Positions 4,713 through 14,444 of a stretch of 64,000 bases of DNA are shown in pieces. The first letter of the stretch is position 1. Each line of letters opens with the position of its first letter. Under the pieces are notes generated by a model, which was not told the origin of the DNA, made no database searches, and was given only the letters and a program-made list of their open reading frames with translations. The stretch comes from Bacteroidota bacterium (GTDB taxonomy: Bacteria > Bacteroidota > Ignavibacteria > Ignavibacteriales > Melioribacteraceae), in contig JAHJUE010000006.1 in the NCBI GenBank assembly GCA_018829205.1, positions 1 through 64,000 on the forward strand, in the 5' to 3' direction. The translations under genes and the position numbers were made by a program.

Positions 4713-5903
4713 TTAGCTGCATCCGCCTTTTGCGACCATTACTTTCTTTTTAACAGTCGTAGAAAATTTGCTTAAGAATTTTTCCTTTGCAATTAATTTT
4801 TGATTTGTGTCTTCTCTCCATCTATGCGGACTAACATTATCGGGAGGAACCGGGCTATGCCCTTCCATAATTAAATTTTTATATCCTTCCATAGTTTCGG
4901 TAAGAATACATTTCTCGGACTCGCCCAAATAGTTTGATATTAAATATGCCCGTTTTGCATTTTCAACATTATCGGAATAAAAAACATTTGTTTTAAAAGT
5001 CTGTTTAAAATATTCCAGCCATTCATAATTTCTTAAATCTTTTAAAGGAATATTAATTGCGAGAGGAATATGTTCTTTCTTAAATTCTTCGGGCGAACGC
5101 AAATCTATTAAATTAATTTTATTATGATTCGCAGATAATTCAGATAAAAGTTTATCCGACGAACATTTATTATAAATATAATTTCCGTCTGCGAGATTAT
5201 TTTCAATTTCATTATCAATTAATTCCTTGCTGCTTGGAGTAAAAGCTGTAATAAATAATATCAAAACAGGAATAGCGGCAAAAGCAAATTTGTTTTTTGC
5301 TTTTCCGAATGAAAATTTGAATTCAACTTTATTTACTTTGCTTTCTACAAACCTTACAGCAACAAAGGCCCCCACAGCGATTACTGTAATAATCACAGCA
5401 AAAAGCTCAGGTGAAATTCCTAAAAATTTATCGAAACGGATCGCGCCCCAATTTTCTGCTAAATATAAATCTTTAACAAGAGGATAAGTTTCAGAAAATG
5501 CCAATACTCCTAATACGGAACCGATTATAAAAACCATCGCGTCAAGTTTTCCCGCCGCGGCGGCGCATACGCTTGTACCCGGGCAAAATCCGCCGATCAC
5601 AAAACCGAGTCCCATAATTCCACCTCCGAATAGAGCCGACCATAGAAATGTAGGATTAACATATATCAAATCTATATTCAATAAATTAAAATGCGATAGA
5701 AAAAGCACGCCGATCATAGCTGTCACTCCGGCTGTGAAAAATACACGAAGTACAGTAAAATCGTATCCGTAAAAAAGTCCCACTAATTTTTTTGTTGATG
5801 AAAATCCCGCCTGTTCGAGAACATATCCGAATCCGATTCCAACTATAAAAGCCACAATAAGATTCAGTTCATTGCTAATAATTTCAGGTACTAATGGTCC
5901 CAT
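4713..5903 (-). CDS. YeeE/YedE thiosulfate transporter domain fused to a cysteine-less rhodanese-like domain
   Basis: I place the start at 5903, where AAGGA lies 8 bases before the ATG and only 4 bases separate it from the previous stop; a longer reading would overlap that gene. The product is then 396 residues. Residues 1-155 are a YeeE/YedE (DUF395) membrane domain with GFCPGTSVC (Cys107, Cys113), the family's sulfur-handling cysteine region. Two further helices (about 163-184 and 206-222) lead to a rhodanese-like domain (about 250-348) with the typical IDLRSPEEFKKEHIPLAINIP. Where rhodaneses carry the catalytic Cys the sequence reads VFYSDNVENAKRAY, so Ser310 replaces it. The protein ends KVMVAKGGCS. 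The likely role is moving thiosulfate or a related sulfur compound; the soluble domain probably binds rather than transfers sulfur, unless the tail cysteine does that. Confidence 0.85.
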   Translation of the reverse strand: MGPLVPEIISNELNLIVAFIVGIGFGYVLEQAGFSSTKKLVGLFYGYDFTVLRVFFTAGVTAMIGVLFLSHFNLLNIDLIYVNPTFLWSALFGGGIMGLGFVIGGFCPGTSVCAAAAGKLDAMVFIIGSVLGVLAFSETYPLVKDLYLAENWGAIRFDKFLGISPELFAVIITVIAVGAFVAVRFVESKVNKVEFKFSFGKAKNKFAFAAIPVLILFITAFTPSSKELIDNEIENNLADGNYIYNKCSSDKLLSELSANHNKINLIDLRSPEEFKKEHIPLAINIPLKDLRNYEWLEYFKQTFKTNVFYSDNVENAKRAYLISNYLGESEKCILTETMEGYKNLIMEGHSPVPPDNVSPHRWREDTNQKLIAKEKFLSKFSTTVKKKVMVAKGGCS

Positions 5904-5907
5904 TGTA

Positions 5908-6429
5908 TTATCCTTTGATCCATAATTTTCTAAAAAAATACGCAAACATATAAGCGCCGCCAAAGATAGCCAGCATGGTTATAATTCCCCCGAACGACAT
6001 AACAGCCATTCCGCTTAAAGCCGATCCGCTTGTGCACCCTCGTCCGAGCTGCGAGCCGTATCCGAATAATGCACCTCCGATTAATGCCGCAGTAAATCGC
6101 ATTCGTTTTCTTACTCCGGGTCCGCGTTCCATTCGTAATTTTATTCTGTCTGAAAGAAGTGCCGAAATAAACGCTCCGAAAAACACACCTATAACTTCCC
6201 AGACCAGCCATGATTTTAAAAATCCGCCTTCGCTCGTTGATTCATAATTTTTATAGAATTCAGAAGTACTGTAATGTTCGGGAGCGGAGACTTTTACTGT
6301 TTCGGCAACAGCTGATTTAAAAGCGCCGCTTGCTCCTAATCCCCTGCCGGTAACATAAATTGTTGCTAATAATACAAGCCCTAATAAAAAGCCTGCTAAA
6401 TACGGATTCATATAAGGTTTACTATTCAT
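5908..6429 (-). CDS. YeeE/YedE family sulfur transporter, single-domain
   Basis: A 173-residue membrane protein with four or five helices and the family signature GSQLGRGCTSGSALSG (Cys132). E. coli YeeE (TsuA) contains two such halves in one chain and imports thiosulfate; here the halves are separate genes, this one and the rhodanese fusion 4 bases downstream, which suggests a heteromeric transporter. It starts 1 base after the cytochrome b stop, so translation is probably coupled. The 35-residue loop after the first helix (about 38-72) is hydrophilic. Confidence 0.88.
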   Translation of the reverse strand: MNSKPYMNPYLAGFLLGLVLLATIYVTGRGLGASGAFKSAVAETVKVSAPEHYSTSEFYKNYESTSEGGFLKSWLVWEVIGVFFGAFISALLSDRIKLRMERGPGVRKRMRFTAALIGGALFGYGSQLGRGCTSGSALSGMAVMSFGGIITMLAIFGGAYMFAYFFRKLWIKG

Positions 6430-6430
6430 T

Positions 6431-7072
6431 TTATTTTTCTTTTTGGTTATCGATTTTATGATCTGTTTCGTGTTCTATTTCTTCATAACCTGTAATCATT
6501 GCTTTTATATTTGATGTAGGCGTAGTTCCCGTTGTTGTCATATATACATGAACAACTAAAAAAGATATTAATAAAAATGCGCCAAGTGTATGCAGCACAG
6601 CTATTGTATTTAAAGGAATTTCACTAATAACAATGATATCGTTCTGATCAATTGTTTTATAGTTCATGTATAAAATGCCCGATATAACAACTACGGGAAT
6701 AAGTACAACTTTAAAACCGAGATAAACTAATTTCTGCAGCGGATTTAATTTACTGAGTTCAGATTTATGCGTAGGATGTTTTTCGCCTTTAAATATTCCC
6801 GAAATATAATAATGAAGTTGTGACTTCAGTTTTTTTGTACTTGGAATATACTGCTTCCATTCGCCTGTTGTGAAATGCCAAAATATTGAAAACGTTATTA
6901 ATATTAATAGCGCGTATGATGAAAAACGGTGAAATCTTACAGCCTGATCAAACCCGAAAATTTCAATTGTTCCGTGAACTTCAAATCCAGTTAATGCCAA
7001 AAAAATTATAAGTGATGCCTGGCTCCAATGCCAGAATCTTTCAAACATTTTATAGATATATACTCTTTTCAT
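6431..7072 (-). CDS. cytochrome b/b6 domain protein, thiosulfate reductase/hydrogenase cytochrome b type
   Basis: A 213-residue four-helix di-heme cytochrome b. Candidate heme-ligand histidines are in FERFWHWSQA, AVRFHRFSSY, FWHFTTGEWK and VVHVYMTTTGTTP. The C-terminal TTTGTTPTSNIKAMITGYEE matches quinol-oxidising cytochrome b subunits of thiosulfate reductases. It lies 1 base after the octaheme cytochrome, so it is the natural membrane partner passing electrons between the quinone pool and that cytochrome. Confidence 0.9.
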   Translation of the reverse strand: MKRVYIYKMFERFWHWSQASLIIFLALTGFEVHGTIEIFGFDQAVRFHRFSSYALLILITFSIFWHFTTGEWKQYIPSTKKLKSQLHYYISGIFKGEKHPTHKSELSKLNPLQKLVYLGFKVVLIPVVVISGILYMNYKTIDQNDIIVISEIPLNTIAVLHTLGAFLLISFLVVHVYMTTTGTTPTSNIKAMITGYEEIEHETDHKIDNQKEK

Positions 7073-7073
7073 T

Positions 7074-8666
7074 TTATTCTTCGTTATTTATTATTTGAAC
7101 TTCGTATTTATTTCTTTTGATTACTAAAAAAGCTCTTACAAAACCATGAATTAATACACCGAATAAAGAAATTATAAACAGCAAGCCGCCAATATAATCA
7201 AGCGTAAAGTTTCTATCTCTGCCAGGTAAATAGAATCCTGTTAATTTTGCCAGGCGTCCGTCATCTTCTCTTGTATGGCATTCATTGCATTGAACTGAGT
7301 TTTCTTTTGTACTTACCATATGATTTAACGGCCAGTACATTTTGGTTTTTACAAATCCGTATTCACCGCTATAGGGCTGACCGATTCTTTTCATTCCTGC
7401 TTCTGCCGCTAGATTCCAATCAAAATCCTGCCAGTAAGCGCTGTCCCCTTTCTCGGGTGAGAAAAGTTTAGGCTGAATTAAGGTGTTATATTTTTTATCA
7501 TAAATCTGATCACCCACATGAATTTTTACAGGTATTATTTTTGAATTATCGTCATCATGCGAACCGTATAATTTATTCATTTCTACAGGGATAGTTTTAA
7601 TTGTGTCGCCGACAATATAATGGTCCGCTGTACCGTTAAACCATATATAATCAGGTTTAACATTTTTTTCCCAAACAAATCTTCCTTTAATTGACATATA
7701 ATCGTGATTGCCTTCTTTATCCTCTTCCTGATAAGGTTTCCCGTCTTTTAGCTTACCGGCTTCCGACCAGTACCAAGCCATTTTTGTTGAATTCACTTTT
7801 GCATAAATTGGAATATGACACGTTTGGCACGCGACCTTGCTGGTGTGCCTGTTAAGCATATCATCAAAATGCGGAAGATTTGTGTGACAATCTTCACAAT
7901 ATGCCCTGTTATTATTTTCAGAAGAAACAGAATAAAGTCTTCCTTTAATTTGGTGATTTTCGGCAGTATGGCAATCAACACAGCTCATATCCATTCCGTT
8001 AACGCCCATGTGAACGTCAACTTCTTTATCCGTTTCACTTATTGCCTGTTCAAGGTCACCGTGTTTTACGTTGTTGCCGCCGCCGCCGTTAAAGTGACAA
8101 TAACCGCATGTTCCTCTGTTTGGGTTTCCTACACTCTGAGCTACCTTTGTTAAGTTCACGTTTCTATCCGGATATCCCGCAAGCGATGAACCTTTTTGAT
8201 ATTCTTCGCTGTTATCGTGACAAACCATACAGTCAACATTTTTCGCATTGTTAAAATCAAAATGATCATCAGTCATTCCAAAACCTATATGACATTTAGC
8301 GCACGATTGTTCGTTGCTGCTCGCTCCAATGCAAAAGTTGTTTAATAAATTTTTCTTTCCTAATTCTGTTATGCCTCTTCCTTCTATATAGGCTACTCTT
8401 TCCCAGTTCCAGTGAGAGGACTGCATTATTTCTTTATGACTTTCCGTATGACAGGTTAAGCATGCCTCGGTTACTTCTTGAGGAGAATTAAACTTTTTTT
8501 GAAGCGGCAATAATTTGCTGTGATCGACAGAAGGAACAGATTTTGTCAAGAATTTTTGCTTAAGTTCAATTAGCTGCAGGTTTTCAGTTTTTTCTTCATG
8601 CAAAACATTAACCAAAACCAGGACAGTAATTACCAATGTAATTACAATTAATATTTTCTTATTCAT
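7074..8666 (-). CDS. octaheme c-type cytochrome, tetrathionate reductase (OTR) family
   Basis: A 530-residue protein with exactly eight CxxCH heme motifs, at residues 69, 122, 146, 187, 229, 257, 280 and 460. The long interval between the seventh and eighth motif is characteristic of the OTR family first described from Shewanella. That protein reduces tetrathionate in vitro and also nitrite and hydroxylamine, so the physiological substrate is uncertain. An N-terminal helix (5-22) and a C-terminal helix (about 489-510) would anchor it with the hemes in the periplasm; Shewanella OTR is soluble. It is the first gene of the operon with cytochrome b and two YeeE proteins, which favours a sulfur substrate. 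No Shine-Dalgarno sequence is obvious. Confidence 0.9.
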   Translation of the reverse strand: MNKKILIVITLVITVLVLVNVLHEEKTENLQLIELKQKFLTKSVPSVDHSKLLPLQKKFNSPQEVTEACLTCHTESHKEIMQSSHWNWERVAYIEGRGITELGKKNLLNNFCIGASSNEQSCAKCHIGFGMTDDHFDFNNAKNVDCMVCHDNSEEYQKGSSLAGYPDRNVNLTKVAQSVGNPNRGTCGYCHFNGGGGNNVKHGDLEQAISETDKEVDVHMGVNGMDMSCVDCHTAENHQIKGRLYSVSSENNNRAYCEDCHTNLPHFDDMLNRHTSKVACQTCHIPIYAKVNSTKMAWYWSEAGKLKDGKPYQEEDKEGNHDYMSIKGRFVWEKNVKPDYIWFNGTADHYIVGDTIKTIPVEMNKLYGSHDDDNSKIIPVKIHVGDQIYDKKYNTLIQPKLFSPEKGDSAYWQDFDWNLAAEAGMKRIGQPYSGEYGFVKTKMYWPLNHMVSTKENSVQCNECHTREDDGRLAKLTGFYLPGRDRNFTLDYIGGLLFIISLFGVLIHGFVRAFLVIKRNKYEVQIINNEE

Positions 8667-12313: not shown

Positions 12314-13225
12314 TTAATTAAACAATCCTTCAATAGATAAATACCTTTCTCCGGTATCGTAAGAAAAAGTAACGACGGTGCTTCCTTTCGGAATTTCGGG
12401 AAGTTTTTTTGCAACTGCCGCGAGCGACGCGCCTGAAGATATACCTACTAACAACCCTTCTTCTTTGGCTGCTTTGGCGGCATACTCAAACGCTTCTTCT
12501 TTTGTTATTTGAATTGTACCGTCCAGCACTTCTGTATGAAGATTCTTTGGAATAAATCCCGCGCCTATTCCTTGAATCGGGTGCGGACCTGGTTCTCCGC
12601 CGCTGATAACTGGAGAAGCTGCCGGTTCAACCGCAAACACTTTTAAATCCGGAAATTTTTGTTTTAATATTTCCGCAACCCCTGTAATATGTCCGCCGGT
12701 TCCGACGCCGGTTATTAAATAATCTATTTTTTCAAAATCTTCAAGCAGTTCTTGTGCAGTTGTAAATTTATGAATATCAATATTCGCCGGATTTTCAAAC
12801 TGCTGAGGCATCCATGAGTTTTTAATTTCTTTCAGAAGTTCTTCTGCTTTTGCGATTGCGCCTTTCATTCCCAACTCTCTTGGAGTTAATTCAAGCTGCG
12901 CGCCGTAAGCTTTCATTAAATTTCTTCTTTCAACAGACATTGATTCCGGCATAACAAGAATTAATTTATAACCTTTTACTGCCGCAACCATTGCAAGACC
13001 AATACCAGTATTACCGGAAGTCGGTTCAATTATTACGCCTCCCGATTTAAGAATTCCATTTTTCTCCGCGTCTTCAATCATAGAAAGCGCGATTCTGTCT
13101 TTTATGCTTCCGCCGGGATTAGCTCTTTCTAGTTTTATCCAAATATCCTGATCATTCCCGTACAATCTATTAATTTTAAGATGAGGTGTTCTGCCAATTG
13201 TTTCCAATATATTGTTAACTTTCAT
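12314..13225 (-). CDS. cysK: cysteine synthase A (O-acetylserine sulfhydrylase)
   Basis: A 303-residue PLP enzyme that makes L-cysteine from O-acetylserine and sulfide. The PLP lysine is Lys42 in NPGGSIKDR; the substrate loop TSGNTG (about 69-74) and the phosphate loop [10 protein letters not shown] (about 173-182) are intact, as is GISSGAS near the C-terminus. Length is normal for CysK. It lies 23 bases downstream of cysE, so the two final steps of cysteine synthesis form one operon. The C-terminus of CysE usually docks in the CysK active site. Confidence 0.96.
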
Positions 13226-13248
13226 ACTGTGTCTCCTTATGTTATAAA

Positions 13249-14085
13249 CTAAATTACAAAATCAATTGCTTCGTCAAATTTTCCGTTCTTTCGTACCTTT
13301 ACTTCGCTAGTGTGATAAACAACCGAATGAGGCGGCACACTTTGAGTAAGCCAAACGTTTCCGCCGATTACACTATCGTGCCCTATTCTTGTATCGCCGC
13401 CGAGTATTACTGCTTGCGAGTAAATTATAACATTATCTCCAATGGTGGGATGTCTTTTCTTTTTCGCGAGTTCTTTTTCAACGCTCATAGCGCCCAAGGT
13501 TACTCCCTGGTAAATTTTCACATTGTTACCAATCTCGGCAGTTTCGCCTATTACTATTCCCGTTCCGTGATCAATAAAAAAAGATTCGCCTATTTTCGCA
13601 CCGGGATTTATATCAATTCCGGTTACTTGATGCGCGTATTCGGATAATAATCTGGGCAGCAGCGGTACTTTTAATAAATATAATTGATGCGCGAAACGGT
13701 AAATTGAAATTGCAAGAAATCCCGGGTATGCTAATATAACTTCGTCAATACTTTCTGCGGCGGGATCACCGTCATAAATTGCTTCTGCGTCTTTCCATAA
13801 ACCGTCATTTATTTCGGGAATTTTTTCAACAAATTTTTCAGTTACATTATCAATATTGATATCCATATTATTTAATGAACGCAGAATATTTTTAAGATTC
13901 CTGCTCAGCAAAATAATTTTGCTTTCAATTTCTTCCGGTGTATAATAGACTTGTTCGGTAAAATGAGGAAAAAGTAATTGAAGCAAATCATTAATAAACT
14001 TATGCGCTTCTGTTTTAACGGCAAAAGGTGAAGAATGCCCTTTACGTATTTCAATCAGTTTTTTAGAAAATTCATTTAAAATCAT
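13249..14085 (-). CDS. cysE: serine O-acetyltransferase
   Basis: Makes O-acetylserine from serine and acetyl-CoA. I start at the ATG at 14085, which has GGGGA 8 bases upstream; an in-frame TTG at 14100 is less likely. The 278-residue product has an alpha-helical N-terminal domain and a left-handed beta-helix of hexapeptide repeats (about 180-265: [31 protein letters not shown]). The catalytic DHGTG and the KRHPTIGD loop are present. The N-terminal domain is longer than in short EpsC-type enzymes. It ends DEAIDFVI, with the C-terminal isoleucine that CysE inserts into CysK. Confidence 0.95.
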
Positions 14086-14444
14086 TTTATCAATCCCCAA
14101 TAATGGAACGACTATTTTTAGTTTTAAAAAGTTAATTATTTATGAAAAGAATAAAAGGGAACTTATAAGGCAAGGGTCAACATATGCAGGTAGAAATATA
14201 CCCGAAATTTATTTGCAGATTTTTAAGCTCTGAGTTTTGTGCGATATTTTGTCTTAATTTATTCACAACATAAATAACGTGAAATTAATTTAATTCATCA
14301 AGGGGAAAATTTGGGAAGTAGTAAGAATACAGAATTCAGAATTCAGAAATCAGAATTAGGAAATTAAAAGATTATAATATTATTTCAGAATCAGTTTAAT
14401 TCCAATTTCTAACTACTGACTACTGAATTCTGACTTCTGGCTTC
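14086..14444. other. 359-base intergenic region with an inverted repeat
   Basis: No gene seen. The right third is a large imperfect inverted repeat listed separately. The left part presumably carries the cysE promoter, which I cannot define. Confidence 0.5.
14323..14444. repeat. imperfect inverted repeat of CAGAATTCAGA-like units
   Basis: The left arm (14323-14366) has tandem CAGAATTCAGAATTCAG units. The right arm (14401-14444) is its approximate reverse complement (about three quarters identical), with a spacer of about 34 bases. The right arm abuts the stop of the FecR/TPR gene, so the folded RNA could end that transcript. It resembles dispersed palindromic intergenic repeats; other copies would lie outside this window. 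Confidence 0.7.

Follow-up and report, generated by a model that had tools for sequence, protein, structure and literature searches.

A YeeE half fused to a cysteine-less rhodanese-like domain with a conserved Gly-Cys tail, a putative sulfur-carrier arm beside respiratory enzymes in Bacteroidota

The gene at positions 4713–5903 of the window (the whole stretch of 64,000 nucleotides analyzed here, from a bacterium of the Melioribacteraceae) encodes P0001, in which one half of a YeeE-type transporter is followed by a rhodanese-like domain that has lost its catalytic cysteine and by a C-terminal tail that ends in Gly-Gly-Cys-Ser. More than a hundred relatives were found, and most of those with readable surroundings adjoined respiration genes. 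We propose that P0001 is a YeeE half with a tethered periplasmic sulfur-carrier arm, in which the rhodanese-like domain would be a scaffold or docking domain and the tail cysteine would take over the holding role; we put the chances for and against this proposal at about equal. A tethered sulfur carrier was the best reading because the tail thiol was strictly kept, the rhodanese fold was Cys-less, and its neighbors were a sulfur transporter and an enzyme from a family that respires sulfur compounds.

Gene Organization in the Window

The P0001 reading frame ran on the minus strand from 5903 to 4713, including the stop codon. Four genes on this strand were tightly packed, one to four bases apart, in the order of octaheme cytochrome (OTR, 8666–7074), cytochrome b561-type subunit (7072–6431), P0002 (6429–5908) and, at the end, P0001. 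The features are as follows.

4713..5903, minus strand: P0001, 396 aa; YeeE half 1, membrane helix, Cys-less rhodanese-like domain and GGCS tail
4719..4727, minus strand: Gly393-Gly394-Cys395, C-terminal tail of P0001 (from sequence and conservation)
4878..5141, minus strand: rhodanese-like domain, P0001 residues 255–342 (PF00581, 37.1 bits, cut-off 22.2)
4974–4976, minus strand: codon of Ser310, the catalytic position of P0001 (site column of the alignment)
5238..5804, minus strand: Sulf_transp (YeeE), P0001 residues 34–222 (PF04143, 53.3 bits, cut-off 27)
5583–5585, minus strand: codon of Cys107, within the Sulf_transp match of P0001 (invariant among the fused proteins)
5908..6429, minus strand: P0002, YeeE half 2, 173 aa (PF04143, 81 bits, cut-off 27)
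6034–6036, minus strand: codon of P0002 Cys132, in RGCTSG
6431..7072, minus strand: cytochrome b561-type membrane subunit (PF01292; nearest NCBIfam model, thiosulfate reductase cytochrome b)
7074..8666, minus strand: OTR octaheme cytochrome, tetrathionate reductase family (TIGR04315, 576.4 bits against a cut-off of 375; eight CxxCH)

P0001 corresponded to the N-terminal part and P0002 to the C-terminal part of the Sulf_transp model, which indicated that the transporter was split into two proteins. The two halves were encoded in reversed order, with the P0002 gene before the P0001 gene, and P0002 was related to the YeeE structures 8j4c and 6leo. The cytochrome b subunit belonged to PF01292 and scored 114.2 bits with the PhsC model NF011582, below its cut-off of 204. 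The OTR had a C-terminal hydrophobic segment. Genes like cysK and cysE, for making cysteine from sulfide, were located on the same strand at 12314–14100, ~3.6 kb from the octaheme gene. The best clue to the function of P0001 came from its operon partners, which lie outside the interval 4713–5903; the neighbors were genes for the respiration of sulfur compounds.

The preliminary description of this DNA had pointed to a serine at the catalytic position, to a missing CxxGxR loop and to a GGCS end. Reading of the ORF confirmed all three, and the observation could be generalized to the relatives. Residue 310 was Ser, within VFYSDN, no CxxGxR loop was present, and the C-terminus was KVMVAKGGCS, with Cys395 as its cysteine. 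Two further cysteines (247 and 332) were found in the rhodanese part.

Relatives and Datasets

The phylum search comprised 296 genomes, 83 of which had a match, many of them to the YeeE part alone. The scan of a species-level genome collection gave 561 confirmed relatives, and the best 80 of the 561 were kept, which biased this set toward close relatives. Mariniphaga and Carboxylicivirga are examples of cultivated bacteria with the operon. The search of a plasmid collection gave two weak partial matches. In total, 94 fused forms including that of the window were read, and 90 remained once near-copies were removed. The gene of L030, which is the same as that in L176, was frame-broken, with a second part ending in GGC, and it was excluded from all tallies; in L104 and L111 the contig ended before the tail. 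Of the YeeE matches not beside an OTR (27), 20 were fetched, and G014 C17 and G251 C36 were unread among the remaining seven.

The separate rhodaneses described below comprised 38 distinct proteins; L034, which repeats L198, was left out, and L023 and L024 (98.6% alike) were both counted. The double-rhodanese lipoprotein of L100 was placed outside these 38, and a fused relative in genome G267, which ends in SGGLCS, outside the 90.

Loss of the Site Cysteine and Conservation of the Tail

The rhodanese site column of the 94 fused proteins, window included, contained Ala in 55, Gly in 23, Ser in 12, Asp in 4 and Cys in none; the site cysteine was likewise found in 0/90 of the non-redundant set. 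A Gly-Cys end was present in 88 of these 90 proteins: 86 ended in GGC plus 0–2 residues, one in EGC and one in VGC. The two tailless cases were L040, with a stop before the tail, and L113, with an N in the record before the tail. After the removal of these two, the alignment of 88 rows showed that G394 and C395 were the only invariant columns after residue 153. The tail was basic in the 88 proteins, with on average 4.0 Lys and Arg versus 0.65 Asp and Glu in the 13 residues before Gly-Cys.

No other conserved Cys column was found in the rhodanese part of the 90 fused proteins (maximum 16/90, at position 320), and an alternative conserved active-site cysteine inside the domain was rejected on this column survey. 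Homologs were searched for the two patterns that speak against a cysteine moved to the tail, a variable Cys-free end and an active-site cysteine elsewhere in the domain, and neither was found as a rule.

In the YeeE part, Cys107 was present in 90/90 fused proteins and Cys113 in 74/90. The preliminary description had named these two as possible targets of the tail; Cys107 proved conserved and Cys113 did not. The YeeE/YedE family has three conserved cysteines along its transport path; two conserved cysteines were seen here, namely Cys107 and that of the RGC motif of YeeE2 (71/71 ORFs), and no third conserved one was found. The stretch 6813–11951 of L173 encodes YeeE halves, a fused rhodanese whose end is SGGLCS, a protein with nine heme motifs and an OTR-type protein that may have a lipobox.

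A tail of the form [GE]GC plus 0–2 residues was found in 0/870 non-homologous closed ORFs from the same 80 loci, which rejected a chance origin. The Gly-Cys end might be read as a sorting or modification signal, for example for lipid attachment, and not as a working thiol, as it is very short, C-terminal and preceded by lysines, and occurs on proteins that are already held in the membrane. However, anchored proteins need no second anchor, the lipoprotein of L100 carries the tail in addition to a probable lipobox at its N-terminus, and the count of 0/870 among unrelated ORFs shows that the tail is not a general sorting signal. We regard this explanation as highly improbable.

The genome of the window had 16 rhodanese matches, and the tail was present on P0001 only. 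In eight related genomes, 26 rhodanese loci were read, and one of them (L216), beside YeeE halves, had a Gly-Cys tail; these were the best 26 of 66 matches, 16 of the 66 being the window's own, and the unread ones included at least G263 C25 and G132 C1, which are the tailed fused relatives L015 and L017. The tail as a general feature of rhodaneses was rejected by these counts (1/16 in the window's genome and 1/26 of the best-scoring loci elsewhere). Five tandem rhodanese-domain genes with lipoprotein-like starts and frames of 350–382 aa were located at G000:C15:253518–259154 (L228 3519–9155). They had no Cys at the sites shown and no Gly-Cys tail, and on these lipoproteins of contig C15 we rejected the view that Cys-less rhodaneses generally have the tail.

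Separate Rhodaneses beside YeeE

A second gene layout had separate proteins for the YeeE half and the rhodanese, and the latter started with a hydrophobic segment. The Gly-Cys end was in frame in 35 of the 38 distinct proteins (GGC in 16, EGC in 14, MGC in 4 and DGC in 1), and in 31 of these 35 the tail cysteine was the sole Cys of the protein as trimmed by the analyst. A 36th tail was found in L188 after a frame break, in the next frame; the replacement of its tail cysteine by selenocysteine was rejected, the apparent loss of the tail being due to this break. The separate tails were also basic, with means of 4.7 Lys and Arg versus 0.67 Asp and Glu in 36 rows, one gene being counted twice.

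The site cysteine was gone in 36/38 and kept in two (L190 and L193), where the tail was present too; L185 had a Cys just ahead of the site. The claim that loss of the site cysteine goes with presence of the tail cysteine was thus upheld in both arrangements with few exceptions (fused, 0 sites and 88 tails of 90; separate, 2 and 35 of 38). The lipoprotein with two rhodanese domains at L100 6213–7340, inside an OTR-YeeE operon, keeps a Cys at one of its sites and also ends in a GGC tail. The site cysteine kept beside the tail in L190, L193 and this L100 protein counts against the carrier reading.

Two second-copy rhodaneses, L093_4771 and L110_5396, had no Cys and no tail; the domain can thus have some use in the absence of a thiol, which counts against the carrier reading. 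The separate rhodaneses of L182, L183, L187 and L194 formed a subgroup that ends in MGC; they adjoined YeeE halves, and neither OTR nor Phs was found in the vicinity.

Predicted Structure and Membrane Side

The structure model built from 88 sequences had a mean pLDDT of 82.6, with 91–97 over most of the rhodanese part, and was used instead of an earlier model from 23 sequences (mean pLDDT 65.8). The predicted model had the rhodanese fold in a DALI-like comparison (Z 12.9, rmsd 1.8, 102 aligned to 3tp9), and the 50 fold-search matches listed were filled by the rhodanese part, with no YeeE structure among them. Residues 391–396 had pLDDT values under 50 (mean 39), so the end of the tail is predicted to be disordered, in agreement with the flexible tail assumed earlier.

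The loop ahead of the extra helix was basic (4.46 Lys and Arg versus 1.93 Asp and Glu on average), and the stretch past this helix was not (3.73 Lys and Arg, 4.10 Asp and Glu). The separate rhodaneses started like N-terminal anchors, with a short stretch and then the hydrophobic segment. Under the positive-inside rule, these charge counts and anchor-like starts suggest that the tail lies in the periplasm.

Operon Partners and Evolutionary History

Among the best 80 of the 561 relatives' loci, OTR was recognized in 69/80, YeeE half 2 in 69/80 and cytochrome b in 65/80. The 11 loci without OTR comprised eight of the split form, two at contig ends (L036 and L062), and L105, where the picking of ORFs failed. 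The split module of YeeE and tail followed PhsA-PhsB-NrfD (a PhsA-like molybdoenzyme, an FeS subunit and NrfD) in 16 of the 20 second-clade loci fetched, the Phs-type identities being assigned by Pfam/NCBIfam in L112 only and by BLAST to L112 in the remaining loci. The other four of the 20 had a tailed rhodanese and YeeE with no OTR or Phs nearby, and they count against the carrier reading. In the split-form loci of the scan, PhsA preceded the module in 6/8, and the other two were at contig ends. Modules of both the OTR-YeeE and the PhsABC type were present and adjacent in L041, L043 and L045. The module shares an operon with either of two unrelated respiratory enzymes, the OTR octaheme cytochrome or the PhsABC-like molybdoenzyme. 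In L090, the run continued with sulfide:quinone reductase (SQR) type III, DUF1641, DsrC and a DsrE2-like protein.

The stretch 2363–8373 of L177 had the order of a MerR-like gene, PhsA, PhsB, NrfD and a YeeE-rhodanese fusion ending in KKREGC. In the tree described below, this fusion did not group with the OTR-linked ones and fell within the Phs branch. The MerR-psrABC operon of Melioribacter roseus appears to resemble L177. According to the parts of the reports available to us, M. roseus was not stimulated by thiosulfate or sulfur, and its psrA transcripts increased on arsenate (PMC3534657, PMC5492636). Given the likeness of the operons, this behavior counts against the sulfur-carrier reading.

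The same two reports (PMC5492636, PMC3534657; available parts), with psr/phsA induced by arsenate and growth unstimulated by thiosulfate, speak for a system that handles arsenic or thioarsenate, in which the molybdoenzyme would be an arsenate reductase and the tail thiol would bind or pass arsenic-sulfur species. We consider this very unlikely, as the locus of the window and other fused loci use the octaheme cytochrome (69/80, best 80 of 561), YeeE is a family of sulfur (or selenium) transporters, and SQR, DsrC and DsrE2-like genes adjoin the module of L090.

A quick tree was built from 78 YeeE halves, with several long branches and an assumed midpoint root. Most of the fused OTR-linked forms grouped together (42 of 44 rows; support, 90), and this group lay among the Phs-linked split forms, with four changes of fusion state and three changes of partner; the partner labels were set by hand, and fused rows counted as OTR by default, even where a contig end hides the partner. 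If the midpoint root holds, the tree suggests that the tail predates the main fusion and the swap of enzyme. The idea of a one-off fusion was abandoned, as separate rhodaneses next to YeeE have the tail too and, on the same rooting, the tree suggests that fusion came later.

OTR and Its Non-heme Cysteine

The OTR of the window contained 17 cysteines, 16 in heme motifs plus Cys112; the latter belongs to an NNFCI motif and precedes the second heme motif by ten residues. Cys112 was invariant in 68/68 aligned OTRs of the YeeE-arm loci (L035–L178 among the OTRs with the motif). It was also kept in 16/17 OTRs of a wider fetched set, most of them without an arm nearby, and the lone OTR without it was a divergent match below the family cut-off. 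L161–L166, small-genome relatives of family code f24 that may be green sulfur bacteria, had an OTR and no P0001-family match nearby; in four of these six, the cytochrome b picked adjoined the OTR.

In the phylum sample, 43 OTR matches were over the cut-off, and a P0001-family match was present within 6 kb in 25 and absent in 18. That OTR always needs the arm was rejected by these 18/43. Since the armless OTRs also keep Cys112, neither OTR nor Cys112 depends on the arm, which counts against the carrier reading.

Heme II is the catalytic heme in the OTR of Shewanella (PMC4484225, in the part at hand). Together with the wide occurrence of Cys112, this makes a thiol near the probable active heme, in sequence, a general feature of OTR. 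The same part describes the reduction of nitrite, hydroxylamine and tetrathionate by the Shewanella enzyme (PMC4484225), so that more than one candidate exists for the natural substrate of OTR.

By its position in the sequence, Cys112 could be where the tail makes contact, and a plain disulfide would fit it just as well. The tail cysteine could be a redox or tethering thiol without sulfur cargo; through a mixed disulfide to either YeeE or the respiratory enzyme, it would keep the complex together or gate it. A lone C-terminal cysteine on a flexible basic tail would suit this role too, and the invariant Cys112 (68/68 aligned) offers a candidate partner; the finding of Cys112 made this role slightly likelier, and the carrier arm slightly less so. 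However, Cys112 is general to OTRs, being kept in 16/17 of the mostly armless wider set, and no OTR was seen in the Phs-linked split loci. We judge such a role to be unlikely.

The Proposed Carrier Arm

In the proposed sulfur-carrier arm, the rhodanese-like domain would have given up rhodanese chemistry and would now serve as a scaffold or docking domain, and the flexible, lysine-rich tail, with its cysteine at the end, would have taken over the holding of sulfur. The basic tail may attract polysulfide, thiosulfate or tetrathionate, and its thiol would take up a sulfane sulfur or thiosulfonate group from one of them. The tail would then move the sulfur between the periplasmic respiratory enzyme (OTR here, PhsABC-like elsewhere) and the cysteines of YeeE. 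For the Hyphomicrobium system, transfer from the SoxY cysteine to cysteines of the YeeE-like SoxT was called conceivable (PMC11582611, available part).

The direction from the enzyme side through YeeE to the cytoplasm is held to be likelier than the reverse. The arm might instead work outward, with YeeE exporting sulfur species, or the arm scavenging them, and substrate being presented to the respiratory enzyme. In Wolinella, Sud feeds polysulfide sulfur to Psr in this manner, and this protein is a periplasmic rhodanese from a polysulfide-respiring bacterium. A sulfur chain was described on Sud (PMC3397948, section consulted), and there was a weak profile match to Sud 1qxn (E 0.0022). However, YeeE together with YeeD takes up thiosulfate (PMC11073785, section consulted), and DsrC and the DsrE2-like protein beside L090 fit an inward path, in one locus. 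An outward arm seems rather improbable.

The sulfur-carrier arm may also be extended to a general periplasmic relay that is convergent with SoxYZ-SoxT, although we hold this to be doubtful. Here the tail cysteine on its Cys-less rhodanese scaffold would be the bound-substrate carrier for OTR, perhaps via the invariant Cys112, and for PhsA-like enzymes, both of which would act on carrier-bound and not on free sulfur, with transfer across the membrane via the tethered split YeeE. If true, this relay would give at least this branch of OTR a defined role in sulfur respiration. The operon partners provide a concrete hypothesis for one OTR branch in bacteria of the Bacteroidota/Ignavibacteria type. 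Taken as a whole, the earlier interpretation of a tethered arm that hands over sulfur is partly supported.

Comparison with Known Systems

In the open-licence PMC literature, as far as its texts were available, we found no account of a YeeE-linked rhodanese with a C-terminal Cys. The nearest transporter system is YeeE/TsuA with YeeD/TsuB, which shares the Sulf_transp family and the partnership of the transporter with a sulfur-handling Cys protein; in Corynebacterium pollutisoli, YeeE and YeeD are one fused protein (PMC11073785, available part for both). YeeD/TsuB is a cytoplasmic, TusA-like partner, whereas the transporter of P0001/P0002 is split and its partner is a rhodanese fold, probably periplasmic, with a tail cysteine. 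P0001 gave no match to the TusA domain (PF01206), and the one TusA match of the genome was on contig C22.

Sud of Wolinella succinogenes resembles the proposed arm in its rhodanese fold, its periplasmic location, its part in polysulfide respiration and its one working Cys (PMC3397948, available part). P0001 differs from Sud in lacking the active-site Cys, in having the only conserved Cys of domain and tail at the end, and in its link to YeeE. Sud holds its sulfur at the rhodanese active-site Cys. Active rhodaneses also have a catalytic Cys, and P0001 has Ser310 there.

The cytochrome of the window is like the OTR of Shewanella in scoring over the TIGR04315 cut-off and in its eight CxxCH motifs; unlike the latter, it is followed by cytochrome b, the YeeE halves and the putative carrier arm. 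In lucinid symbionts, a divergent soxY with soxZ adjoins otr (PMC11237559, available part), so an enzyme of this family also neighbors a carrier with a different fold.

SoxYZ/SoxT has the layout proposed for P0001, with a periplasmic carrier thiol on a swinging arm, but the arm of P0001 is a rhodanese fold and is fused to YeeE or in one operon with it. SoxY ends in GGCGG, whereas the P0001-type tail ends at the Cys or one or two residues later. The SoxY domain PF13501 had no match in P0001 at E up to 0.1, and a SoxY search of the window's genome gave no match, with the control genomes equally silent. The likeness to SoxY drawn in the preliminary description therefore stands for the layout and fails for family membership. 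P0001 may work like a swinging-arm carrier, and it is a member neither of SoxY, nor of Sud, nor of the active rhodaneses. In SoxYZ-SoxT, carrier and transporter are separate and the transfer between them is conjectural; in each of the 90 non-redundant fused sequences, a single protein combines the two. With carrier and transporter in one polypeptide and the thiol apparently moved to the arm, the step from carrier to transporter becomes testable there.
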